From the NCBI GenBank assembly GCA_900316685.1, contig ONDS01000012.1, positions 73,920 to 127,062 on the forward strand: a stretch of 53,143 nt of DNA, written 5' to 3'. The first letter of the stretch is position 1. Every line of letters starts with the position of its first letter. The notes below the pieces were generated by a model. The model made no database searches. It was not told where the DNA came from and saw only the letters and a program-made list of their open reading frames with translations. The translations under genes and the position numbers were made by a program. This stretch comes from an uncultured Prevotellaceae bacterium. GTDB lineage: Bacteria; Bacteroidota; Bacteroidia; Bacteroidales; Bacteroidaceae. Positions 4,381-22,422 of this stretch are shown here, one piece after another.

Positions 4381-5205
4381 ATGTCCATATTAACAAGAAA
4401 ATACCCTTTTGAGCAAAGCAGGAATTGGTTGGGCGACTGTTTGACCTATAGTGTCATCGTCTTTCTTATACTTTTTTTCCTTCAACCCTTCGGGCTCGGT
4501 CTCTATCCGGCAAACAAATTGGTGTTGTCGCTGGTCTTTGGAGGAGTGACCTTCGTCTGTTGCGCTGTTTATGGATTCCTGGTGTTCAATACCCTGCCGC
4601 TACGCATCCAACCATGGAAGGTCTGGCATCATGCCCTGGCCCTCATCGGTATGGTGCTGTTCGTCGGCATCGCCAATTTCCTGACCTTTTCGCTGGTTTT
4701 CCAGCATTCCCTTACCTTCCATACATTCCTGCTTTTCCTTTATTGGACTTTTATCATCGGTGTCATCATCACGGTGGTGTCGATGGGCATCACCTACACA
4801 CGCCATTTGCGCAACCGTATGGAAACGTTGCTTGAGAACACCACCGATGAACAGCGCGACATCATGATTACCATCCACAACAACAATGTGCGAGGAGAAG
4901 ACCTTACGCTGCCCATCAACGACCTGCTATATATAGAGGCTCGGAAAAACACCGTGATGGTGTATCATGTGGTCGAAGGGAAAACCACCTCGACGGAGAT
5001 ACACGCTACGCTGTCGGCGGTACTCGACGGACTGAAAGATTTCAAGACCATCTTCCAGTGCCACCGCTCCTTTGCCGTCAATCTCAACAATATCACCTCG
5101 GCCAAGGGCAACAGCAACGGCTATCAACTGACCCTCGGAAACTGCCCAACGATGGTGCCCGTATCGCGCACTTATGTCCCTCTTCTTAAGTCGTTTGTCG
5201 CTTAG
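4381..5205 (+). CDS. Membrane-bound LytTR-family transcriptional regulator
   Basis: A 274-residue protein with about four predicted hydrophobic membrane spans in residues 20-142, then a short linker and a LytTR DNA-binding domain (about 168-272). The domain shows the family pattern: DLLYIEARKNTVMVYHV, then FQCHRSFAVNLNNI, then the closing VPVSRTYVPLL. No receiver domain is present, so sensing is likely through the membrane part. It lies 33 bp after lgt. Its most obvious target is the receptor gene downstream, whose promoter is preceded by 20-bp-spaced direct repeats that begin at the end of this gene. The target assignment is inference. Confidence 0.88.
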   Translation: MSILTRKYPFEQSRNWLGDCLTYSVIVFLILFFLQPFGLGLYPANKLVLSLVFGGVTFVCCAVYGFLVFNTLPLRIQPWKVWHHALALIGMVLFVGIANFLTFSLVFQHSLTFHTFLLFLYWTFIIGVIITVVSMGITYTRHLRNRMETLLENTTDEQRDIMITIHNNNVRGEDLTLPINDLLYIEARKNTVMVYHVVEGKTTSTEIHATLSAVLDGLKDFKTIFQCHRSFAVNLNNITSAKGNSNGYQLTLGNCPTMVPVSRTYVPLLKSFVA

Positions 5206-8086: not shown

Positions 8087-8160
8087 GGTCCCGTAGCTTA
8101 GCTGAATAGAGCGTCAGATTCCGGTTCTGAAGGTCTTGGGTTTGAATCCCAACGGGATCA
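8087..8160 (+). tRNA. tRNA-Arg (anticodon CCG)
   Basis: A 74-nt cloverleaf. The acceptor GGTCCCG pairs with CGGGATC (one G-U), the anticodon stem is TCAGA/TCTGA around TTCCGGT with anticodon CCG, and the T-arm is TTGGG-TTTGAAT-CCCAA. The discriminator is A and no CCA is encoded. It reads Arg CGG codons. Confidence 0.96.
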
Positions 8161-8168
8161 CTTTACAA

Positions 8169-8216
8169 AATCCGCAAGATTCTGAATTTCAGTTTCTTGC
8201 GGATTATTTCATTTTT
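8169..8216 (+). terminator. Terminator after tRNA-Arg
   Basis: A perfect 11-bp inverted repeat AATCCGCAAGA (8169-8179) / TCTTGCGGATT (8195-8205) is followed by a T-rich run (ATTTCATTTTT). Confidence 0.8.
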
Positions 8217-8355
8217 CAAACGCGCCACATTTGCACCACCAAGCATTAACAACAAGTTTTTACAAACTGCACTATACGCCAAGAAATGGCTCATTAACGC
8301 TTGTTACACATCATGAATAGAGAAGATCGCCATATGGTTTGATTACCGTTTTCAT

Positions 8356-8718
8356 GTGAAAACGGCAAAGATGGGATGTAACCTTGAACCAGAAACCGAG
8401 ATAGCCCCAGGCTTGTGTTTTCCTCATGGTTTTCCAGTCGTGATACATTCTCATGCCAAGCTAGGCCGCCACTGCATCGGGCATCCAGGTGTGCAGGTTG
8501 GCACTTCACGAACAAAGGGTGGGGCACCTGTTATTGGCGACTATTGTTTCTTGGGTAATGGATATCATATTATAGGAAATTGTAAGATTGGAGATTGGTG
8601 TTTTATATCACCAGGGGCTTTTGTTTGTAAAGATATACCAGAAGGTTCTGTCGTGGGATTTGGATTAAACAATATTATATCTAACAAAGGAAAAGAGACT
8701 GTAAGTATGTATCTTTAA
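8356..8718 (+). CDS. Short serine-acetyltransferase-like hexapeptide protein, probably 5'-truncated
   Basis: The 120 residues are a left-handed beta-helix acetyltransferase core similar to the C-terminal half of CysE-like enzymes of polysaccharide clusters: PHGFPVVIHSHAKLGRHCIG, HPGVQVG, GGAPVIGDYCFLGNG, IGNCKIGDWCFISPGAFV, then DIPEGSVVGF. The frame is open back to a TGA at 8314, but no ATG precedes the core. The only early start is the GTG at 8356, inside a 20-bp inverted repeat (CCGTTTTCA-TG-TGAAAACGG, 8346-8365). The alpha-helical N-terminus usual in the family is missing. It precedes rfbA by 11 bp. It is either a short functional enzyme or the end of a gene cut by rearrangement. Confidence 0.6.
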   Translation: MKTAKMGCNLEPETEIAPGLCFPHGFPVVIHSHAKLGRHCIGHPGVQVGTSRTKGGAPVIGDYCFLGNGYHIIGNCKIGDWCFISPGAFVCKDIPEGSVVGFGLNNIISNKGKETVSMYL

Positions 8719-8729
8719 ATTCAATATAG

Positions 8730-9647
8730 ATGAAAGGAATAGTATTAGCAGGGGGTAGTGGCACACGTCTCTATCCAATAACAAAAGGTGTGAGCAAACA
8801 GTTACTCCCTATTTATGATAAACCAATGGTGTATTATCCGATCTCTGCACTTATGTTGGCTGGAATTAGAGATATTCTTATTATCTCTACACCATACGAC
8901 TTGCCAGGCTTCAAACGTTTGTTAGGTGATGGTTCCGATTACGGTGTACACTTCGAGTATGCAGAGCAGCCTTCACCGGATGGACTGGCGCAGGCTTTCA
9001 TCATTGGTGAGAAATTCATTGGAGATGAAAGTGTCTGCCTTGTACTAGGAGATAATATATTCTATGGGAGTGGCTTCACAGGTTTGCTCCGCAAGGCTGT
9101 GAAGGATGCAGAGGAAAATAAGAAAGCTACCGTCTTTGGGTATTGGGTCAGTGATCCAGAACGATATGGCGTAGCTGAATTTGATAAGCTGGGCAACTGC
9201 CTTTCTATTGAGGAAAAACCGAAAGAGCCAAAATCAAACTATGCTGTGGTAGGTTTATATTTCTACCCCAACAAGGTCGTTGATGTTGCGAAGCACATTA
9301 AGCCTTCTGTTCGTGGAGAACTAGAGATTACGACTGTGAACCAGGAGTTCCTGAAAGATGGAGGACTGAAAGTACAGGTTTTTGGCCGTGGTTTTGCTTG
9401 GCTTGATACCGGCACGCACGACAGTCTCGCAGAGGCATCCACCTTTGTAGAAGTGATAGAGAAACGTCAGGGACTCAAAGTTGCATGCCTGGAGGGCATT
9501 GCTTACCGCAATGGTTGGATAAGCGAGGAGCGTGTGCGAGAGATTGCTCAGCCCATGCTTAAGAACCAGTACGGACAGTACCTTTTGAAGGTAATAGACG
9601 AGATGAAAGAAGAGATTACGTCAATATCATTTCAAAATAAGGATTGA
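8730..9647 (+). CDS. rfbA: Glucose-1-phosphate thymidylyltransferase
   Basis: RfbA (RmlA) joins dTTP and glucose-1-phosphate to form dTDP-glucose, the first step toward dTDP-L-rhamnose and other dTDP sugars. The 305-residue protein is full length. It has the nucleotide-binding loop [13 protein letters not shown] (6-18), [15 protein letters not shown] (24-38), the [12 protein letters not shown] region (about 89-100) and [15 protein letters not shown] (about 218-232). It is normally followed by rfbC, rfbB and rfbD, none of which is here; the next gene is the defence operon. This suggests a rearranged or interrupted polysaccharide cluster. Confidence 0.96.
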
Positions 9648-9731
9648 TGCCATAGGCTTCAAGTTTCAGGTTATCCCCTTAAACAATCTTAAAAAAACAC
9701 AAGAAACGCTATCTGTGTCGGGGAAAAAGTG

Positions 9732-9739
9732 TATTTTTG
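9732..9739 (+). promoter_or_regulatory. -7 element of the HsdM-HsdS-ATPase operon
   Basis: TATTTTTG lies 22 bp before the ATG of the methylase and is the only clear promoter signal for the five genes that follow. The -33 half is weak (CTGTG near 9713). Confidence 0.6.
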
Positions 9740-9761
9740 CAGGATATAAAACGAATGTATA

Positions 9762-11306
9762 ATGGATATTGATTTTTCTCGTAATCAGTTTACAGACATA
9801 CTGACGCGCTGTCATAACATCATCAGGGACAACGACAAGTTGTCGCCTGAGGCCGCTTTTGACGAAACGAGCAAAATCCTTTTTATCAAGATACAACGCG
9901 AACGGGCTGACGGGAAGGTATATACAATGTCGGACTACTTTCAGGAGAAAGAGAACTACCGCGAGAAGTATGCCATAGATAATACACCGTACTATCAGTT
10001 CCTGTTTCGTCAGACGAAAGATAAATACCGGGAAGAGGAAATATTCGACGACTATGACACTATTAAAATACGTGAGCATAGTTTTGAGGCTATCATCTAT
10101 TGTCTGGAGACAATGAATCTGGCAACTACCGAAGATGACGTGAAAGGTATCGCCTTTGAGTCGTTTCTCGGAAAGACGTTCCGAGGCGAGCTGGGACAGT
10201 TCTTCACTCCCCGTGCGGTGGTGAATTTTATGGTGTCGGTACTTCATCCGGTAGAAGATATGCTGGTATGTGATCCTTGTTGCGGCAGCGGCGGCTTTCT
10301 CATCTCCGTGTTCGATGAAATCAGGAAGCAGATAGAAGCAGACAAAAATGCAGGTGACGACGATAAAAAGGAGCGGATAAGGAAGCTCTCGACCAGTAGC
10401 CTGTTTGGTGTGGATGCCAATGCCCGGATGGCACGTGTTGCCAAGATGAATATGATTATGCATGGCGACGGCCATACCTGCGTGTATCATTATGACGGTC
10501 TGTTGAATATCAACGGTGTGTTTGAAAACCGTTTCGACCTGATACTGACCAACCCTCCCTTCGGTTCGCGTGTGAACAAAAACCTTCTGATCAGCGAAGC
10601 AGAGCGCTTTACTGATACGCTGAAGAAGCAGCGTAATATTACCTTATACGGTGAGGGTTATGTGAGGTCGTTGGCTCAGGTGGAGGACCATATTGGGCGG
10701 CCACTTCTGTCGCTGTTTGAAACGGGCAAATATACCAACATATCGGAAGTGCTCTTCATAGAGCGTTGTCTGAACCTTCTGAAAGAGGGAGGACGTATGG
10801 GCATAGTGTTGCCTGATGGTGTGCTCAGCAATGAGAACCTGCAGGCGGTGAGGGAATATATAGAAAGCAGGGCGCGTATTCTATTCATCGTGTCGCTTCC
10901 CGACGATGTGTTTCTCTCGTCGGGAGCCGCTGTCAAGTCGAGCATTATGTTCTTCCAAAAATACACGGAAGTGGAGGCTGTACGATACCGTGAAGTGTTG
11001 CAGGAGGAGCGCAATGCCGCAGACGTAAGACATGGCGATATGCTGCGGGAACTCAAGCAAGCGTTAAGGCAGATAAAAGGCAGGAAGGAGCGGGATGCAC
11101 AGCGTGACAAGATAGAAAAGCTGGAAGCACAGATGCACGACGAGACCTTCAGGGCTGTCAGGGAGCGACTGAACTACCGCATTGCACGGGCTGTGTTGGG
11201 TCGGGACAGCAAGAGTCCTCAAGATATGGATTTGAAAACGGAATTGGAGACGCTGGCCAAGGAGTATCAACGGTTTTGCGGACAGACAGATGGGAACGAT
11301 GATTGA
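9762..11306 (+). CDS. hsdM: Type I restriction-modification DNA methyltransferase subunit (HsdM-like)
   Basis: An N6-adenine methyltransferase of 514 residues. An HsdM N-terminal helical domain (about 5-120) is followed by the SAM-binding motif DPCCGSGGF (171-179) and the catalytic NPPFG (264-268), then VLPDGVL (about 347-353). The C-terminal 120 residues are highly charged and likely coiled coil, the region that contacts HsdS. Its 3' end overlaps hsdS by 17 bp. In classical type I systems HsdM2S methylates a bipartite site and HsdR translocates and cleaves, but no HsdR is encoded here. Confidence 0.93.
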   Translation: MDIDFSRNQFTDILTRCHNIIRDNDKLSPEAAFDETSKILFIKIQRERADGKVYTMSDYFQEKENYREKYAIDNTPYYQFLFRQTKDKYREEEIFDDYDTIKIREHSFEAIIYCLETMNLATTEDDVKGIAFESFLGKTFRGELGQFFTPRAVVNFMVSVLHPVEDMLVCDPCCGSGGFLISVFDEIRKQIEADKNAGDDDKKERIRKLSTSSLFGVDANARMARVAKMNMIMHGDGHTCVYHYDGLLNINGVFENRFDLILTNPPFGSRVNKNLLISEAERFTDTLKKQRNITLYGEGYVRSLAQVEDHIGRPLLSLFETGKYTNISEVLFIERCLNLLKEGGRMGIVLPDGVLSNENLQAVREYIESRARILFIVSLPDDVFLSSGAAVKSSIMFFQKYTEVEAVRYREVLQEERNAADVRHGDMLRELKQALRQIKGRKERDAQRDKIEKLEAQMHDETFRAVRERLNYRIARAVLGRDSKSPQDMDLKTELETLAKEYQRFCGQTDGNDD

Positions 11307-12648
11307 CACACTTCAATATTGCACTCTGTCCAACTGGCTATACTCCATTCCGGAGAGCTGTCCCAGTGCGGAGTATGCCAGTCTGGATGCTGTGCTGCTG
11401 GATGACCTCATAGAACGCGTGATGGAGCCGGTGGTGATACAGGACGATGAAATATACACCCGCTTGACCATCAAGACAGGCGGGGCAGGTGCGCAGGTGA
11501 GGAGAAAAGGGGGCGTCCCGGAACGGATTTGTGGAAAGGAGATAGGACGGAAAAACCAATTCAGGGTTCATCGCGGTCAGTTGGTTGTCAGCAGTATCGA
11601 TGCCCGCAACGGTGCTGCGGGCATAGTGCCAGAAGAGGCTGAGGGAAGCGTGGTGACAGACAATTTCTGGGTGTTCACGGTCAAGGACAACAAGGTGGTG
11701 CCATCTTTTTTGCAGTTGCTGCTGTCCAGGCCGGGGGTGCTTTCGCAGATAGAAGCCATCAGCCATGGGACCACCAATCGACAGTATATCACTATCGACC
11801 AGTTTCTTAAGGTAAGGGTTACACTGCCTGAAATGCCGGAGCAGAAGCGGTTTCTGATACAGTATAAACGGCTACAGGACCGAGTGACAAAGCTACAGGC
11901 TGCAATCAACTCATTTGGGGATAGGTGCGAGACCGTCATTAAGACACTTGTAGGCATGACAGATGAATCAAGTGAAACCACAAAAGGAACGCTTTTTACG
12001 GTAGCGTACCAAGACTTGTACAAGTGGAACAGTGGTGAGGCAAAGCAGATAGCCCCTTCCTCAAGCACAATGAGGATGAAGGACTGTATAGCAGAATTGA
12101 TGACTCGGGGCGGCAAGTCGCTGCGGGTAACTCCTCAGAAAACGCCTGCCAAGAGGTTTCACTACGTGGGTATGGAGAATGTGGAGAAACGCCTGGGCCT
12201 TTTGACCGACAAACCGCTGGAAGCGACAGGGCAGGACATCAAGAGTGCATCGGTGGCAGTGCCAAAGGGATATGTAATATATGGAAAGCTGCGCCCTTAT
12301 TTGAACAAGTATTGGTTGAATGAACGCTATCAAGGTGATGTGATATGTTCGTCAGAGTTTCTGGTATTCCGTCCTTCAGAAATTGTCGATCTGCATTATT
12401 TTCTGGCTATCCTTGGTTCGGACTATATACAGAAGCAGATTTCAGGCAAACTGTCCGGGACACGCATGCCTCGTTTGTCAACATCTGATTTTCTGGATTT
12501 GGAAGTGCCTTTTCCAAGCATGGATATACAGGAACAGATAGGGGAAGAATGTTTGCAGATTCAGAAAGAGGTTGATGGCAATCGAAAAAAATTAAAAAAA
12601 CTTAGAGGATTTGAAACGGAGAAATTGTTTGATAAATACGGCATATAG
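11290..12648 (+). CDS. hsdS: Type I restriction-modification specificity subunit (HsdS-like)
   Basis: The 452-residue protein has two target-recognition halves. The first runs about 20-190 and ends in ITIDQFLKVRVTLPEMPEQKRFL, followed by a coiled coil. The second runs about 255-420 and ends in LSTSDFLDLEVPFPSMDIQEQI, followed by a second coiled coil. Two TRDs separated by helices are the mark of a subunit that reads a bipartite sequence. The ATG at 11290 overlaps hsdM by 17 bp. The TRDs differ from each other, so an asymmetric target is expected. Confidence 0.88.
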   Translation: MGTMIDTLQYCTLSNWLYSIPESCPSAEYASLDAVLLDDLIERVMEPVVIQDDEIYTRLTIKTGGAGAQVRRKGGVPERICGKEIGRKNQFRVHRGQLVVSSIDARNGAAGIVPEEAEGSVVTDNFWVFTVKDNKVVPSFLQLLLSRPGVLSQIEAISHGTTNRQYITIDQFLKVRVTLPEMPEQKRFLIQYKRLQDRVTKLQAAINSFGDRCETVIKTLVGMTDESSETTKGTLFTVAYQDLYKWNSGEAKQIAPSSSTMRMKDCIAELMTRGGKSLRVTPQKTPAKRFHYVGMENVEKRLGLLTDKPLEATGQDIKSASVAVPKGYVIYGKLRPYLNKYWLNERYQGDVICSSEFLVFRPSEIVDLHYFLAILGSDYIQKQISGKLSGTRMPRLSTSDFLDLEVPFPSMDIQEQIGEECLQIQKEVDGNRKKLKKLRGFETEKLFDKYGI

Positions 12649-12653
12649 TAGCT

Positions 12654-14360
12654 ATGAAGATTAAGACGCTTTACATAAAGAGCTTTGCCAACATACAGGA
12701 AGAAACCTTTGACTTCGGAAACAGCGAAGGGTTGACCTTACTCATTGGCAATAATGGGAGTGGAAAGAGTAGTCTGCTGGAGTGTATCAGCGACATTTTC
12801 AGCAACCTGTACTTCGAGGAAGAGGGACGGGCATTTAAGTTTGTCTCTCCATTCCAGATTGTCTGGGAGTTGGACGGTGTGGATTATACAGCAGCGTGGG
12901 ATGGCAGCAACCTATCCAAACTTAGTGGAGGCAATGCCGTTAGTCCGTTGACACCATTTCGTCTGCCGCAGGGAGTGGTGGCAATCTATAGTGGCGAGTC
13001 GCAGCGCTTGTGGGAGCATTTCTATGAGCCTTCGTACAAGAATTTCATATCGAGCATCAACAGAAGTGCGGCTGGTGGCCTTGTGGTGCCGGCCTATCCC
13101 AGAATGCTCTTCCTGAATCGCTACTATTGGCATTTGTCATTGTTGTCGTTGTTGTGTTCAGACAATGCGGCCATCAAGAAATTCTGCACCGATGAGTTGG
13201 GCATCGGAATGGTTAACGAAATAAAATTCACTCTTAATACTGCCAACTATCAAGACTATACCGTTACGGATGTGTTGACCTTCGTTAAAAAGCTTGAAGG
13301 GAACAACACCTTTGCATCATTGGATGCGTTCAAGCAGTTCTTGTTGCAGAGCGGTGTGGATAGTGCCATGCTCTTTGAGTATCTGTATCTGGCCTTTACC
13401 TCCAAAAACAAGAAAATTATTTCAGATATTACTGTGAAGTTCAATCAAGGGCTGGAGGTTGATGCGCTGAGTGAGGGCGGCAAGAAGCGGTTGCTGATTA
13501 AGGCTGCACTGGAGTATGCCGGACAGGAGAATACATTGTTTCTGTTAGATGAACCCGATGCTCACGTACACATCAAGAACAAGCGGCAGATAGTTGACAC
13601 GGTAAAGGAGTACACCACTAACCGCCATGTTATGATGACCACTCACTCGCCCTCGGTATGCCGTTTTGTGAAGAATATCCCCTCTATCGTAATGATGGAC
13701 AAAGGCAAGCGGGTGGCAGTAGCAGACCAGATAGAGGCCGGGCATAAACTGACCGATGATACCACACTCTATAACGTGTTGTTCTCCACCAAGAATATTG
13801 TTGTCACCGAGGGAAAGACCGACTGCCTGTATATCAAGAAAGCCCTGGAAAAGCTGACGGGCAGTTTCCCGCTGCTGAGAACTGAAACAGAGTTCATACC
13901 CATCGGTGGTACAGATCCGGAGGTGGACAAGGATTTCCTTGCCAAGATAGCGCAACTGGAAGGCAGAAAGATTATCCGTCTGGTGGATAGAGATGAGGCA
14001 GGACTGAAATGTGCAAGAGCGTTAATTGGCAATGAGAATCTGAAAAAAGTGGATATTACTGATTTTCGGGCAGTCAACGGAAGAACAGATATGTTCTTGT
14101 TGATGCTCCCTCCTGCGACAGGGACAAACTACAGCGAGGATTTCCTAATAGAGGACTACTTTGACCATGCAAAAGTGCTGGCTATATCGAAACAATATAT
14201 CGACCAAAAATTTACCGGGCCGTTCAATGAGTTTCCGAAAGTAAAGAAAGACCTAAAGGAAAGTTTGTTGCCTGAATTTGCAAAGACAACCGTTAATGCG
14301 GCTGACATGGAGGGCTTCACGACGCTGCTGGAAAAGTTGGAAACGAAACTGGCAGAATAA
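12654..14360 (+). CDS. OLD-family ATPase with C-terminal TOPRIM nuclease domain
   Basis: A 568-residue protein with an ABC-type ATPase followed by TOPRIM. ATPase motifs are Walker A GNNGSGKSS (32-40), the signature-like LSEGGKKRLL (272-281), Walker B LFLLDEPDAH (295-304) and H-loop THSP (330-333). TOPRIM motifs are VVTEGKTD (383-390) and LVDRDEAG (443-450), which supply the metal-binding Glu and Asp residues, so nuclease activity is plausible. This architecture is shared with OLD and GajA-like antiphage nucleases. It begins 5 bp after hsdS and ends 16 bp before the DUF262 gene. No UvrD-like GajB partner is present, so it is not a standard Gabija locus. Confidence 0.88.
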   Translation: MKIKTLYIKSFANIQEETFDFGNSEGLTLLIGNNGSGKSSLLECISDIFSNLYFEEEGRAFKFVSPFQIVWELDGVDYTAAWDGSNLSKLSGGNAVSPLTPFRLPQGVVAIYSGESQRLWEHFYEPSYKNFISSINRSAAGGLVVPAYPRMLFLNRYYWHLSLLSLLCSDNAAIKKFCTDELGIGMVNEIKFTLNTANYQDYTVTDVLTFVKKLEGNNTFASLDAFKQFLLQSGVDSAMLFEYLYLAFTSKNKKIISDITVKFNQGLEVDALSEGGKKRLLIKAALEYAGQENTLFLLDEPDAHVHIKNKRQIVDTVKEYTTNRHVMMTTHSPSVCRFVKNIPSIVMMDKGKRVAVADQIEAGHKLTDDTTLYNVLFSTKNIVVTEGKTDCLYIKKALEKLTGSFPLLRTETEFIPIGGTDPEVDKDFLAKIAQLEGRKIIRLVDRDEAGLKCARALIGNENLKKVDITDFRAVNGRTDMFLLMLPPATGTNYSEDFLIEDYFDHAKVLAISKQYIDQKFTGPFNEFPKVKKDLKESLLPEFAKTTVNAADMEGFTTLLEKLETKLAE

Positions 14361-14376
14361 TAAAGGAGGTAGGCTT

Positions 14377-16023
14377 ATGGGACTGAATTTACAGGCATCA
14401 CAACAATATCTGAAGGGTATATTCGGAACGTCGGACGTGTTTATCATTCCAAGTTATCAGCGGCCATACTCATGGGAATATGACCAGTGTTCGCAGTTGT
14501 TCACTGACATCGTGGAGGCTTTTGAGAGCGGAAATGAGTTTTTTGTGGGCAATATCCTGATGGCCAAAAGTCCGGTTGAGAAGAACCGTCCCCGGATTGT
14601 TGACGGACAGCAGCGGTTGCTGACACTATGGCTGATGTTCAAGGTGATGTATCTTATCTATCCGGAACTGAACGACTTGAAGGCGGTGGTTGCCGTGCCT
14701 GCAAGGGAAGGGGATGACACCTTTCCGAAGATAGTGTCGGAGGTGTTTGAAACCAGCGACCCTCAAGAGATACCGTTGATACACGCCAAGAGTCTTGACG
14801 AGCTGGACCGCCAATACAAGTCAGTGCTCGACAAGAAAGGCGCTATCAGGGAAAATCTGTGCAAAAGCAAGATTGATATTAACCTGTTCTATATTTACAG
14901 CTGGGTGTTGGCAAAGCGTCAAGAGTATGGTGACAGCAAGATGAAAGATTTTATTTTCTTCGTGCTGGAGAGTGTGTCTATGCTACCTATAGAGCTGACG
15001 GGAACCAACATGGAAGATGCCAGCGACCGTGCCTTGGTTATCTTTGAGACCCTGAACAACCGTGGTATGGACTTGGAGGATGCTGATATTTTCAAGGAGC
15101 GTCTGTACAGGAAGGCTGTCAATGTGAAAGAGAAGGATACCTTTGTGCAGAGTTGGACAGACCTGAAGTCGATGGTGGAGGATGTCGGAATGAAGATTGA
15201 TGACGTGTTCCGTTATTATTCACACGTCATCCGCGGCCGCAACAATATCACGTACGGTGAAAAGAGCCTCAGACAGTTTTTCCTGCTTGAAAAATTCTCG
15301 CCCTTGCAGAACAAGGAATATAAGGAGATACTCGATGACCTCTACAAGATGTTGCGTGTGCTGAAGTATATAGACACAGAGGCCGGTCAGACAAGTGAGG
15401 TGGGAAAATGGCTGCAAATCATCAATGCCTACACCAACCAGTATCCCAAATATGTGCTGACGACTTATCTTTTTGAGAAAGGTGTAGAGACAGTGGAGCA
15501 TAATAGTACGCAGTTTGTGGAATTGATGAAAGCCATCGTGCGATACTGCTATTTTATGGGTTCTACCACGACAGTTAAGTTCCGACTGTACGAATACATT
15601 AAACAGATAGCCAACGGACAAGACATCGGAGAGAACCGGATAAGCGAACTTGACATCAGCAGGTTCGACTGGGTGGGGCAGTTGCGCAAGGGCTACACCC
15701 TGCTGGCTTACTATCTTACTGCAAAAACACCCTTACCTTACTACAGTATAGACCAGATATATACGCAGGCAGACGTTAAGAGGTGGGTGCCGCAGGACGA
15801 GCAGGAAAGCTACAATAAGATGCTGGGCTGTTTGGGTAACTTGGTTGTGCTCGACATCAACCGTCGTTCTATGAGTTGTGACAAGAAGGCCAATCACTAT
15901 GCTACATCAAGTATCAGTGAGGTGAGGCATCTGTTGGACGGGAGTCCCCGGGTGAATAAAGAGCTTATTTTGCAACGTAACGAGGAGCTGAAGAAGCGGC
16001 TCTACGATTTCTTCTCAGTATAG
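14377..16023 (+). CDS. DUF262-domain protein with degenerate C-terminal DUF1524/HNH region
   Basis: The start at 14377 is preceded by AAAGGAGGT (14363-14370), a rare strong Shine-Dalgarno for this genome. The 548-residue protein has the DUF262 ParB/Srx-like motifs SYQRPYSWEYDQ (26-37) and VDGQQRLLTL (75-84), a long helical middle, and a DUF1524-like end with LGNLVVLDIN (about 486-495) and CDKK. At the place where GmrS/D-type nucleases carry the HNH histidine in an EHIxP motif, this protein reads SIDQIYTQ (457-464), so the histidine is replaced by Gln. DUF262 alone is associated with NTP-dependent sensing of modified DNA. It may act as a sensor rather than an HNH nuclease. Confidence 0.85.
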   Translation: MGLNLQASQQYLKGIFGTSDVFIIPSYQRPYSWEYDQCSQLFTDIVEAFESGNEFFVGNILMAKSPVEKNRPRIVDGQQRLLTLWLMFKVMYLIYPELNDLKAVVAVPAREGDDTFPKIVSEVFETSDPQEIPLIHAKSLDELDRQYKSVLDKKGAIRENLCKSKIDINLFYIYSWVLAKRQEYGDSKMKDFIFFVLESVSMLPIELTGTNMEDASDRALVIFETLNNRGMDLEDADIFKERLYRKAVNVKEKDTFVQSWTDLKSMVEDVGMKIDDVFRYYSHVIRGRNNITYGEKSLRQFFLLEKFSPLQNKEYKEILDDLYKMLRVLKYIDTEAGQTSEVGKWLQIINAYTNQYPKYVLTTYLFEKGVETVEHNSTQFVELMKAIVRYCYFMGSTTTVKFRLYEYIKQIANGQDIGENRISELDISRFDWVGQLRKGYTLLAYYLTAKTPLPYYSIDQIYTQADVKRWVPQDEQESYNKMLGCLGNLVVLDINRRSMSCDKKANHYATSSISEVRHLLDGSPRVNKELILQRNEELKKRLYDFFSV

Positions 16024-16027
16024 ACTT

Positions 16028-17488
16028 ATGGCAGAAAAGATAGACAGTATCAAAGTTGAGCGTTTCAAAGCCTTTAAGGACGAGACAGTGTTCAACATAG
16101 GGAAGCACAACCTCTTGATATACGGCGAGAATGGTGCGGGGAAAAGCTCTCTGTACGATGCACTGAAGGTGGTGTTCTTTTACAAGCGGATAAGCGATGA
16201 CCATCGTGTAGGCGTAACACCCGAGGAACAGCGGGCGCAACTTGCATCATATCTGTCCGGAAAGTATGACCATCGGGGTGCGGCAGGTTACGGAATCACG
16301 GTGAACAATGAAGACTACCTGACCTTCATTGCAAGTGAAGACTATGCTGACTACCATGTCAGTATGATAAGCAATGCTGACATACAAGTCGGGAATTACA
16401 TTTCCTACAAGGAACTTTTGGAAAGAGTGTACTTTCACGGCGATTTGGCAGCCCTCCTTGAAGATGAAGAAAAGACGACAGCTATTGCAGAGTCCGTGAA
16501 CAAAGACTTGAGGGAGTGCTTCAAGGAAGAATACGTTACGGTAGCCATATCGAGAGAGAATGAACTGAAGTGCAGTCTGAAAGGGCCGTGGAGCGGAGAT
16601 ACCTATATAGAGAACATACGCGACTACTTCAATGAAGCCATCATCAATCTGGTGGTACTGGTGTTGCTTCTGAACACTGTCAAGATGTTGGAAGAAGGAG
16701 ACCGCAAGAAGATACGTATTCTGGTACTTGACGATATTATTACCAGCCTTGATGCCTCAAATAGGCTCTTGCTGATGCGCTATGTGCGTAATAGGTTTAC
16801 CAGATACCAGAAGTTTGTTTTCACCCACAACATCAGTTTCTTCAACCTATGGCTTTACACCATGAATAGTATAAAAGGAGAGCAGGGAGAATGGCAAACG
16901 ATGAATATCTACGACTGTGGCGGGAAGCATAAAGTCTATAACTACAAGGCTCCGGGGGAACACGAGAAGAAGCGCAGCCAACAGCTCAGAGAGCGGTTGG
17001 AGTCGGGAGAGGAAGATCTTCAGGACTTGGGCAATGACATACGTCGCTACTTCGAGGAACTGCTTCACGAGTTCTCAAAGATAGTGCATGTGGGAGGGAA
17101 AAATGAGTGCAGCCATATCTTAGACCGTCTGGAGAATGGAAAGACGGTCTATCTGCATGAAGACGAAGGCCATCATTTCAAGACGGCAGAGGATATGCTC
17201 GACCACATGAAAGGTATTATGGGACTGGAGGTGAACGACATAATGATGAAGCAGCTCAGAACAAAATATGCAGACTATCATGCCAACAAATTCTTTAAGG
17301 AAACGGTACTGCCGGTAGTCAGGGAACTGAAGATGTTTCAAAAGTTGTCGATGCATCCTTTGTCGCATGCACATCTGCATGGTGTACCAACTTATACGGA
17401 AAAGGAATTAAGTATGACCATAGTGCTAATAGAGAAGTTTGAGAGTGTGGTGAATGAACTCATGAACTTTGATGTGAGCACGGTGTAA
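16028..17488 (+). CDS. RecF/SMC-like AAA (ABC-type) ATPase of the defence operon
   Basis: A 486-residue P-loop protein with Walker A GENGAGKSS (33-41), a short insert instead of a long coiled coil, and Walker B ILVLDDIITS followed by LDASNR (231-246), then a His switch FTHNIS (265-270). The usual ABC signature (LSxGE) before Walker B is replaced by FNEAIINLVVLVLL, which is unusual. The C-terminal 200 residues are helical with no nuclease motif I can name. It starts 4 bp after the DUF262 gene and closes the operon. Pairs of such ATPases with nuclease-like partners occur in Septu, PARIS and related systems; which, if any, it belongs to is unclear. Confidence 0.8.
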   Translation: MAEKIDSIKVERFKAFKDETVFNIGKHNLLIYGENGAGKSSLYDALKVVFFYKRISDDHRVGVTPEEQRAQLASYLSGKYDHRGAAGYGITVNNEDYLTFIASEDYADYHVSMISNADIQVGNYISYKELLERVYFHGDLAALLEDEEKTTAIAESVNKDLRECFKEEYVTVAISRENELKCSLKGPWSGDTYIENIRDYFNEAIINLVVLVLLLNTVKMLEEGDRKKIRILVLDDIITSLDASNRLLLMRYVRNRFTRYQKFVFTHNISFFNLWLYTMNSIKGEQGEWQTMNIYDCGGKHKVYNYKAPGEHEKKRSQQLRERLESGEEDLQDLGNDIRRYFEELLHEFSKIVHVGGKNECSHILDRLENGKTVYLHEDEGHHFKTAEDMLDHMKGIMGLEVNDIMMKQLRTKYADYHANKFFKETVLPVVRELKMFQKLSMHPLSHAHLHGVPTYTEKELSMTIVLIEKFESVVNELMNFDVSTV

Positions 17489-17811
17489 TAATAAACAGAA
17501 TCCTTTTTGAAAATACAACTGATGGCGCAGTGGCGACACTGTGTCCTTAAATGCTTTTGTGGATTATGGAACAAGAGAATTATATGAAAAATAAAGAACA
17601 ATGGTTTCAGCCAACAGCTGAGACACGTGGATTTCAAGATAAGCGAGATCGGTTGGTCGGGTGGTTCTGCTTCCTCTTCAAGAATTTTGAGCCAGTCTCT
17701 CTGGCTGTCCGAGGAAAGTACATTCTTGTAGGTAGCCTCTCACCGCCTTTTTCACGGCTGAAACGAAGACTTTTATGCCTTTCAAGCAAATGTAACAACT
17801 AACCATACATC
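17489..17811. other. Gene-free stretch after the defence operon
   Basis: I see no supported gene. The 83-codon open frame at 17551-17802 has no family resemblance, promoter or start context. No strong hairpin terminator follows the last ATPase; the T-run CCTTTTTG near 17502 is unpaired. Confidence 0.5.
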
Positions 17812-17970: not shown

Positions 17971-18327
17971 TCATTTTATATCGTGATCGGTCATAGCGCA
18001 GACGCAGGAGTCTGACCACACGTTCTCGGCGGTCTCCACCATGTCGATGATGGTGTAGATGGGCAGGATGATGCCCATCACGGCGACGGGTGCTCCGATG
18101 CCTGTCATCAGCGAGAGCGTAAGGAAGTAGCAGCCCATCGGAACGCCGGCATTGCCGACGGCAGAGATGACGGAAACAAACGTCCACAACACGATGGTGC
18201 CGAGGGTGAGTGGTGTGCCTCCCTGCTGCATCACGAAGAGCGAGGTGACGAGGATGAAGGCCGCACAGCCATTCATATTGATGGTACCCACGACGAGTGC
18301 GCCAATCCACAATATCGTATTCTTCAT
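17971..18327 (-). pseudogene. Internally deleted dicarboxylate/amino acid:cation symporter
   Basis: The 118 residues match only the last third of DAACS-family sodium symporters: INMNGCAAF (usual INMDGTAL), the LTLGTIVLWTFVSVISAVGNAGVP segment and a DMVETAENVWSD segment (usual DMxRTxxNVxGD). The first 14 residues (MKNTILWIGALVVG) look like an original N-terminus joined in frame to the C-terminal third. A full protein has about 400 residues, so two thirds of the helices are missing and transport is impossible. A TACCTTTA box (18350-18357, minus strand) still precedes it. Confidence 0.7.
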
Positions 18328-21516: not shown

Positions 21517-22422
21517 ATGCCTTGTAAGATGAATCAGAAATCACTATTTCCAGCAATAGATGTGGAGAACAAGCATACGCTATTCATTATTGGCAACGGG
21601 TTTGATTTAGCTCATGGGATAAAGTCGCAGTATAGCGACTTTGCGAAGTGGGTGCGACAGCGGGGCAATTACCGCCTTGTACAGATGATGGAGATTTTCT
21701 TCAGTAACAATAGGGACTTTTGGGGGGACATAGAGAAAGCCTTGGGGGAATATGACGAAGAAGAGATAGTGGACCGGTGTAGTCCTGACGAAGGTATTGA
21801 CTATGACCACCCAACTCGTTCAGTGGCAGCCATCGAAGATGGCCCCGATTGGTTGTTTAAGCCAATCTTGGATGAATTCTTAGAGGCGTTTAATCAATGG
21901 GTGGAAAGTATTGACATGGACGATGTAAAAGCAAAGTTTGATTTGCCAGTCGAAAGTCGCTATCTGTCGTTTAATTACACTGAGACCTTGGAAAAAATCT
22001 ATAGCATACCCCAAGAGAATATCCTCCATATCCACGGATCAAGGCTGAAACATGATGACTATATCATTGGCCACGACCAGCCACGCGACCCCAACGATGC
22101 ATATGAGGATGAAGCGGAACTTCTTTTCAAGCAAGATACATGGAGCAAAGTTATAGCATGGATGAATGAATTGGTGAAAGATACCGATGGCATAATAAAG
22201 GAAAACCATGCCTTTTTCAATCTACTTGGTGATATTACAAAAGTGGTTGTTATTGGGCATTCTTTCTATCACGTAGATTACCCATATATGATAGAAGTCG
22301 TACGGCAGACAGGAACGAATGTCCCATGGACAATATCATATCACACCAAAAATGATGAAGAACGAATAACAGACTTTATTGCTCGTACTGGGTTGCATAA
22401 TTATAGATTGTTTGAATTATAA
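21517..22422 (+). CDS. AbiH-family abortive-infection protein
   Basis: A 301-residue protein with the AbiH opening motif LFIIGNGFDLAHGIKSQYSDF (about residues 21-41 in two parts: IGNGFDLAHG and SQYSDF) and LSFNYTETLEKIY with NILHIHGS further on, the conserved order of this family. It ends with VVVIGHSFYHVDYPYM. AbiH proteins stop phage growth by an unknown mechanism; some homologues are annotated only as bacteriophage abortive infection AbiH. The start at 21517 (or the ATG at 21529) follows the IS4 remnant closely. Its place in a tRNA-targeted island fits a mobile defence gene. Confidence 0.88.
   Translation: MPCKMNQKSLFPAIDVENKHTLFIIGNGFDLAHGIKSQYSDFAKWVRQRGNYRLVQMMEIFFSNNRDFWGDIEKALGEYDEEEIVDRCSPDEGIDYDHPTRSVAAIEDGPDWLFKPILDEFLEAFNQWVESIDMDDVKAKFDLPVESRYLSFNYTETLEKIYSIPQENILHIHGSRLKHDDYIIGHDQPRDPNDAYEDEAELLFKQDTWSKVIAWMNELVKDTDGIIKENHAFFNLLGDITKVVVIGHSFYHVDYPYMIEVVRQTGTNVPWTISYHTKNDEERITDFIARTGLHNYRLFEL

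Follow-up and report, generated by a model that had tools for sequence, protein, structure and literature searches.

An apparently mobile methylase-specificity-OLD nuclease operon in an uncultured Prevotellaceae bacterium as a candidate restriction-like defence unit

We analysed a 53,143-nucleotide stretch of DNA from an uncultured Prevotellaceae bacterium (assembly GCA_900316685.1, contig ONDS01000012.1, positions 73,920 to 127,062), hereafter the window, in which an operon encodes a methylase (M), a specificity subunit (S), an OLD-type nuclease (OLD), a DUF262 protein and a second ATPase (gene 5). The five open reading frames (ORFs) are intact and co-directional on the forward strand, with junctions of -17, +5, +16 and +4 bp calculated from the coordinates, and an earlier note made from the sequence alone, which had listed these genes and junctions, agrees with our coordinates, lengths and Pfam domains. 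It was also right that M and S are a methylase pair and that the locus has no HsdR, as none was found in the operon by the ORF list and a Pfam scan of its five genes. The genes are the following:

9762-11306, forward strand: M, N6-adenine methylase with motifs DPCCGSGGF and NPPFG; 514 aa; Pfam N6_Mtase 1e-40
11290-12648, forward strand: S, specificity subunit with two Methylase_S stretches; 452 aa; Pfam Methylase_S 7.7e-17
12654-14360, forward strand: OLD, ABC ATPase with a C-terminal Toprim; 568 aa; Pfam AAA_15 2.7e-19, AAA_21
14377-16023, forward strand: DUF262 (GmrSD_N) accessory protein; 548 aa from the ATG at 14377; Pfam 3e-31
16028-17488, forward strand: gene 5, SMC-like ABC ATPase; 486 aa; Pfam SMC_N 3.1e-13, AAA_13 1.2e-12

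The mechanical ORF list places the DUF262 start at a TTG at 14278, and the ATG at 14377 was taken here. The Pfam Toprim match of OLD (0.0011) reaches 19.5 bits against a cut-off of 23.1; the protein has a full-length fold match to Thermus OLD (6p74), and its residues E386, D445 and D447 (the Toprim EDD) are conserved in an alignment of related loci.

The conserved unit of the family is M-S-OLD, and the linkage of OLD to M-S is far above chance. The window OLD was aligned with four relatives from a sample of genomes of the order, a profile search of genome contigs returned 171 relatives, and all ORFs of the best 80 of these loci, which were thus chosen by OLD similarity, were annotated; three of the 80 (L085, L096 and L098) are contigs that also stand in the order sample, as L024, L025 and L028, and their OLDs were in the query. 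Upstream of OLD, all 80 loci have S, which phmmer detected in 78 and Pfam Methylase_S in L071 and L082; the two genes are no more than 60 bp apart or overlap in 65 of them, and M is present in 74, the loci without it (L032, L078, L088, L096, L107 and L109) starting at contig ends. Together with the conserved Toprim acids and the fold match, this upholds the proposed tie between the OLD/TOPRIM protein and HsdMS. A single protein of 787-879 aa combines M and S in L058, L070, L085 (= L024), L091, L093, L097, L100, L102 and L105. The loci span Bacteroidota, Spirochaetota, Bacillota, Pseudomonadota, Campylobacterota and others, and a Flammeovirga plasmid carries the same trio, annotated merely as N-6 DNA methylase, subunit S and ATP-binding protein; the family is widespread, restriction-like and apparently without a name of its own. 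OLD matched 11 loci in viral contigs, one of which (L163) has the order NUC-M, S, OLD, while of the other ten OLD-like ATPase loci five have weak M matches some way off (two also weak S matches) and the remaining five neither.

Within the order, an OLD match was found in six other genomes; S or M-S adjoins it in five of them and not in the sixth (L029), where the match is partial. As a control for the OLD-based choice of loci, the window M was searched against the same order sample and matched seven other genomes, six of them with a close M (E <1e-85). Three of these six have M-S-OLD (L026, L027 and L028), two are ended by the contig (G315 and G055), and one (L190, 9680-11900) has a PtuA-PtuB (Septu) pair in OLD's place behind M-S (PADLOC 7.8e-73 and 7.3e-61). 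No OLD was found in the available stretch around the M of the seventh genome (G273) or around a second, distant M of G221, and the count is not exhaustive, as G368 (L024), which has M-S-OLD, was not returned.

The HsdR-based premise of the earlier note, by which HsdR is the missing part, has to be replaced. M starts with an HSDR_N_2-like nuclease domain in 67 of the 80 loci (phmmer with the first 165 residues of L028 as query, a domain that Pfam identifies as HSDR_N_2 at 1.1e-26), so the nuclease of this family sits on M and not in HsdR, and it is this domain that is absent in the window branch. The window M begins where the nuclease domain of its relatives ends, and the domain is also absent from M of L030, L031 and L099, which group with the window as a single clade in the M tree (support 98/96; L099 drew a long-branch warning). 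That tree was built from 73 of 75 rows, because L043 and L045 were too short. Of the 67 loci with the domain, 56 have an intact D-ExK motif and 11 a degenerate one, including L064, whose nuclease part is split over two frames. The degenerate state involves five changes on the M tree, which sets no direction, and it marks a clade of fused M-S proteins (L070, L085, L091, L093, L097, L102 and L105). M of L058 and L089 also gave no nuclease match, but these are fused or partial, and the ORF preceding that of L058 is a phage integrase. An HSDR_N_2 nuclease acting in trans was considered and rejected, the sole copy found in the genome being a 149-aa gene beside holA, judged to be housekeeping.

The Toprim acids of OLD are intact in 75 of the 80 loci, including loci with a degenerate or absent M nuclease, and the EDD is kept in 10 of the 11 loci in which the M nuclease is degenerate (OLD of L084 is in two frames, of which only the longer piece was aligned, and that of L067 is cut near a contig end). 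Because these acids are kept even there, and because the fused nuclease is absent in the window branch, OLD is the likely cutter here. We give a probability of roughly 0.5 to the reading that this is a mobile, restriction-like unit of defence with an M-S-OLD core, in which OLD most likely cuts unmarked DNA; the five-gene cluster as a whole probably serves phage defence.

DUF262 and gene 5 are cargo that varies among loci, since the next relative, L031 (M 75%, S 61% and OLD 75% identical), has neither gene and other loci carry different ones. Among the 80 loci, DUF262 occurs in five (L030, L043, L092, L098 and, as a 91-aa fragment, L096) and gene 5 in L030 only, which is a 99.6% copy. This distribution does not support the suggestion that OLD, DUF262 and gene 5 form a three-protein effector replacing HsdR; the observation named in advance as speaking against it, namely that the last three genes are not conserved with hsdMS, was made for DUF262 and gene 5 and not for OLD. 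Elsewhere, PtuA-PtuB pairs accompany OLD in L044, L052 and L063, and pAgo genes are found in L041, L043, L083 and L092, with pAgo and then DUF262 directly behind M-S-OLD in L043 (3990-8121) and L092 (10742-14851), both of them Flavobacteriales-type loci, and pAgo without DUF262 in L041 and L083. A GIY-YIG/DUF4357 gene lies downstream of OLD in a cluster of six loci (L077, L083, L087, L106, L071 and L107) and corresponds to the PADLOC candidate PDC-S14 in L087 and L106. Further genes behind or between the core genes encode Schlafen, FRG, FokI/Mrr and protein kinase proteins, as seen in those cluster members that were scanned.

The window DUF262 protein retains the YQR, DGQQR and F..LN..G stretch, and its HNH motif is degenerate (IDQIYT vs IEHILP or similar in relatives). 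The nuclease motif EHxxP, which the available part of PMC12707154 gives as the rule for the DUF1524 part of GmrSD, is present in all three distinct longer relatives (L028 = L098, L043 and L092) and in four of five shorter ones, the fifth keeping EH. DUF262 homologues were detected in eight other genomes, and an HsdR-like gene lies nearby in three of the five that were inspected (L204, L205 and L206), so that this DUF262 type is an accessory linked to restriction-modification (R-M) in its own right; no DUF262 match was found in viral contigs.

Relatives of gene 5 are ABC ATPases of 455-812 aa. An Eco57I-type (type IIG) gene immediately precedes six of eight distinct relatives (L017, L019, L020, L142, L143 and L145). 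L021 has a helicase gene in front of it, and upstream genes were scanned for all of the eight except L018. Gene-5-like ABC ATPases behind type IIG genes may represent a widespread R-M-linked effector family. Two alignments, of six and of five sequences, show R339, E343 and H447 without variation (nine distinct proteins besides the L030 copy), the pattern being R339-x3-E343 ... P444-L-S446-H447 with S, C or T before the His in the family. According to the accessible text of PMC2610378, RloC and PrrC share Arg-x3-Glu-x36-52-His (the spacing being that of RloC), often with Ser before the His, and each residue of the RloC motif is required for tRNase activity. The window gene 5 has both the R-x3-E and the SH of PrrC/RloC, but its E-to-H spacing is 103 compared with 36-52 in RloC; it is 56-66 in seven relatives and 114 in L019. 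Profile comparison with AAA_13 proteins gave a probability of 98.3% over the ATPase, reaching R-x3-E, whereas the C-terminal part alone gave 1.5% over 16 columns in hhalign (score 19.4 vs a highest score of 14.2 in 40 column shuffles). The sequence-based link to PrrC/RloC tRNases is thus suggestive but statistically weak, we make no claim that the nuclease part is homologous because the C-terminal match is not significant, and we put an RNase function of gene 5 at about even odds. A structure model of gene 5 had a mean pLDDT of 48.8 and was not used, nor was a string resembling the HEPN motif Rx4-6H (RTKYADYH), which lies in an insert absent from relatives. In 392 other genomes of the order, gene 5 had five weak matches, and no close relatives were found in plasmids and phages. 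Viral contigs gave nothing with the single protein as query and 21 loci with the alignment; nine of their proteins passed phmmer, four of which (three distinct) are full relatives, and the other five (E 5.7e-8 to 7.8e-6) are without the N..SH string, so that the pattern marks only the nearer gene 5 family.

The whole block containing the operon is near-identical in another species. Its counterpart L030 is a contig of an uncultured Prevotellaceae genome whose dnaX is 72% identical to that of the window genome, and all five operon frames are intact there. The block and other features around the operon are the following:

8087-17647, strand not assigned: mobile block, 9561 bp long; 99.57% identity with L030 4435-13994; flanks to the left and right unrelated
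8087-8161, forward strand: tRNA-Arg (ccg) at the left block edge; L030 counterpart 4435-4509
9732-9739, forward strand: putative Bacteroidota -7 promoter element TATTTTTG, 22 bp 5' of the M start

The identity of the block, its unrelated flanks and the divergence of dnaX indicate a recent transfer, unless one of the assemblies is chimeric, and the block appears to move as a unit, judging from these comparisons. In L030, the 4.7 kb beyond the right block edge have no match in the window genome. The block also contains genes for a hexapeptide transferase and a nucleotidyl transferase, the latter being in two frames in L030 (5078-5994) and intact in the window. Neither an integrase (among the seven block genes scanned) nor a direct repeat joining the tRNA to the right block edge was seen. 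Just right of the block lies a 118-aa fragment from the C-terminus of a sodium:dicarboxylate symporter (window 17971-18327, reverse strand), and an AbiH abortive-infection gene is located about 4 kb past the operon (window 21517-22422; Pfam 2.4e-51). The promoter element fits the Bacteroidota -7 consensus; its pattern TANNTTTG occurs 48 times in the window vs 23 expected.

Under the reading that we favour, M and S would act as a bipartite N6-adenine methylase marking the cell's own DNA. As the PD-(D/E)XK-type nuclease that is fused to M in related systems is absent in the window branch, cleavage of unmarked DNA would most likely fall to the Toprim nuclease of OLD, whose ABC ATPase would switch it on when M-S meets an unmethylated target or when modification fails. 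The DUF262 protein, with its degenerate HNH and intact nucleotide-binding motifs, would most likely be a sensor or regulator, and gene 5 most likely a second effector with an abortive action, which may be a PrrC/RloC-type RNase.

A less probable alternative, drawn by analogy, is that OLD guards M-S and responds with abortive infection once the pair is put out of action by an anti-restriction protein of a phage. PARIS, which senses Ocr, and PrrC, which senses inhibition of an R-M enzyme, are described as such R-M guardians in the available part of PMC12707154, and OLD resembles AriA/PtuA-type ATPases in both sequence and fold (best PADLOC model PtuA, 5.1e-36; AriAB profiles also match, with the best stretch at 266-452 and 66 bits). 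Moreover, most relatives (56 of the 67) have an intact M nuclease to protect, and a Septu pair can replace OLD. However, the window branch and the 11 loci with a degenerate nuclease have no obvious nuclease to guard, and yet the EDD is kept in 10 of those 11.

It is more doubtful still that the locus is a decayed R-M system, in which M-S would remain as an orphan methylase beside three independent defence genes (OLD, DUF262 and gene 5) that only share its operon. The missing nuclease of the window M, the degenerate HNH of DUF262 and the free variation of downstream genes would fit such decay, but the close spacing or overlap of S and OLD across several phyla (65 of the 80 loci), and the intact state of all five frames both in the window and in the copy in another species, argue against it. 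Restriction in trans by an HsdR encoded elsewhere is very improbable: the genome, which is 89.8% complete, does have one strong HsdR (contig C12), but this belongs to an hsdM-yhcG-hsdS-hsdR locus (L022 6277-14305) with its own HsdM and HsdS, so that the pairing of a distant hsdR with the window HsdMS, raised beforehand as a possible objection, was not found, the C12 HsdM is only 23% identical to the window M (over residues 126-471), and the C12 HsdR matched near only two of the 80 related operons, on the opposite strand in both (up to 9 kb on each side and frequently less, with one phmmer query by which a divergent HsdR could be missed). An IS200-like transposase ORF lies between hsdS and hsdR in the C12 locus.

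The triggers and targets of OLD nucleases are poorly understood. If OLD is indeed the cutter steered by M-S, these nucleases would gain a direct cue for self and non-self, namely adenine methylation at a bipartite site, and the natural variants with and without the M nuclease domain would allow a clean test of the role of OLD. A core followed by so many kinds of genes would also be a source of candidate defence effectors, including the gene 5 family.

The kind of system is already known, as R-M-linked effectors and guards such as PrrC and PARIS (reviewed in PMC12707154), HEPN nucleases beside R-M genes (PMC3710099), OLD-Toprim modules beside BREX (PMC12839542, which also points to earlier ABC-ATPase-anchored R-M-like systems; Krishnan 2020) and OLD classes set by gene context (PMC10568477) are all found in the available parts of the literature. 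A partial literature search found no description of an M-S-OLD core that has lost the M nuclease, or of the five-gene set. Compared with type I R-M systems, the window operon has HsdM and HsdS but not the cognate HsdR; accessory genes inside an R-M operon are likewise known from systems with R-linked ORFs and from PrrC/EcoprrI, which differ in having HsdR. Gene 5 shares the ABC ATPase and R-x3-E...SH with PrrC/RloC but differs in spacing and C-terminal part, as described above. The window M matches residues 210-634 of RM.BsaXI (8w0p; 8.2e-25), and in its family, as in BsaXI, M joins a nuclease to a methylase while S is usually a separate protein; however, the window M is without the nuclease part, an OLD ATPase-Toprim follows S, and the N-terminal domain of L028 gave no sequence match to the BsaXI N-terminus.

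MADS (methylation-associated defence system) is an eight-gene system. M, S and OLD match its NCBIfam models MAD2, MAD5 and MAD3 at 251, 37 and 28 bits, far below the cut-offs of 720, 400 and 420, and the PADLOC models mad2 (M, 3e-38), mad5 (S, 3.4e-22) and mad3 (OLD, 1.3e-24; gene 5 also, 1.8e-13), whereas no other MADS component matched. The window DUF262 protein shares its domain, YQR and DGQQR with GmrSD and type IV DUF262-DUF1524 enzymes, PADLOC HEC-06 and Orf5, but does not keep the EHxxP motif. Despite its PtuA match, OLD differs from Septu in having a C-terminal Toprim and no PtuB partner in the operon, and Gabija has a UvrD-like helicase, GajB, beside OLD, whereas no helicase family is represented among the five window genes. 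The window OLD is like known OLD nucleases in combining ABC ATPase and C-terminal Toprim in one protein, with conserved acids and a matching fold. Classes 1, 2 (Gabija), 3 (retron) and the proposed class 4 (PARIS), as named in the accessible part of PMC10568477, do not include an M-S context there, and the window operon has M and S in place of GajB, a reverse transcriptase or a separate AriB. It is tentatively possible, although we consider it rather doubtful, that M-S-OLD represents a further context class, in which an M-S-steered Toprim is the real cutter, so that the M nuclease can decay or vanish, and exchangeable downstream genes (here a DUF262 sensor with a dead nuclease and an RNase like PrrC) supply a second layer that is suicidal.

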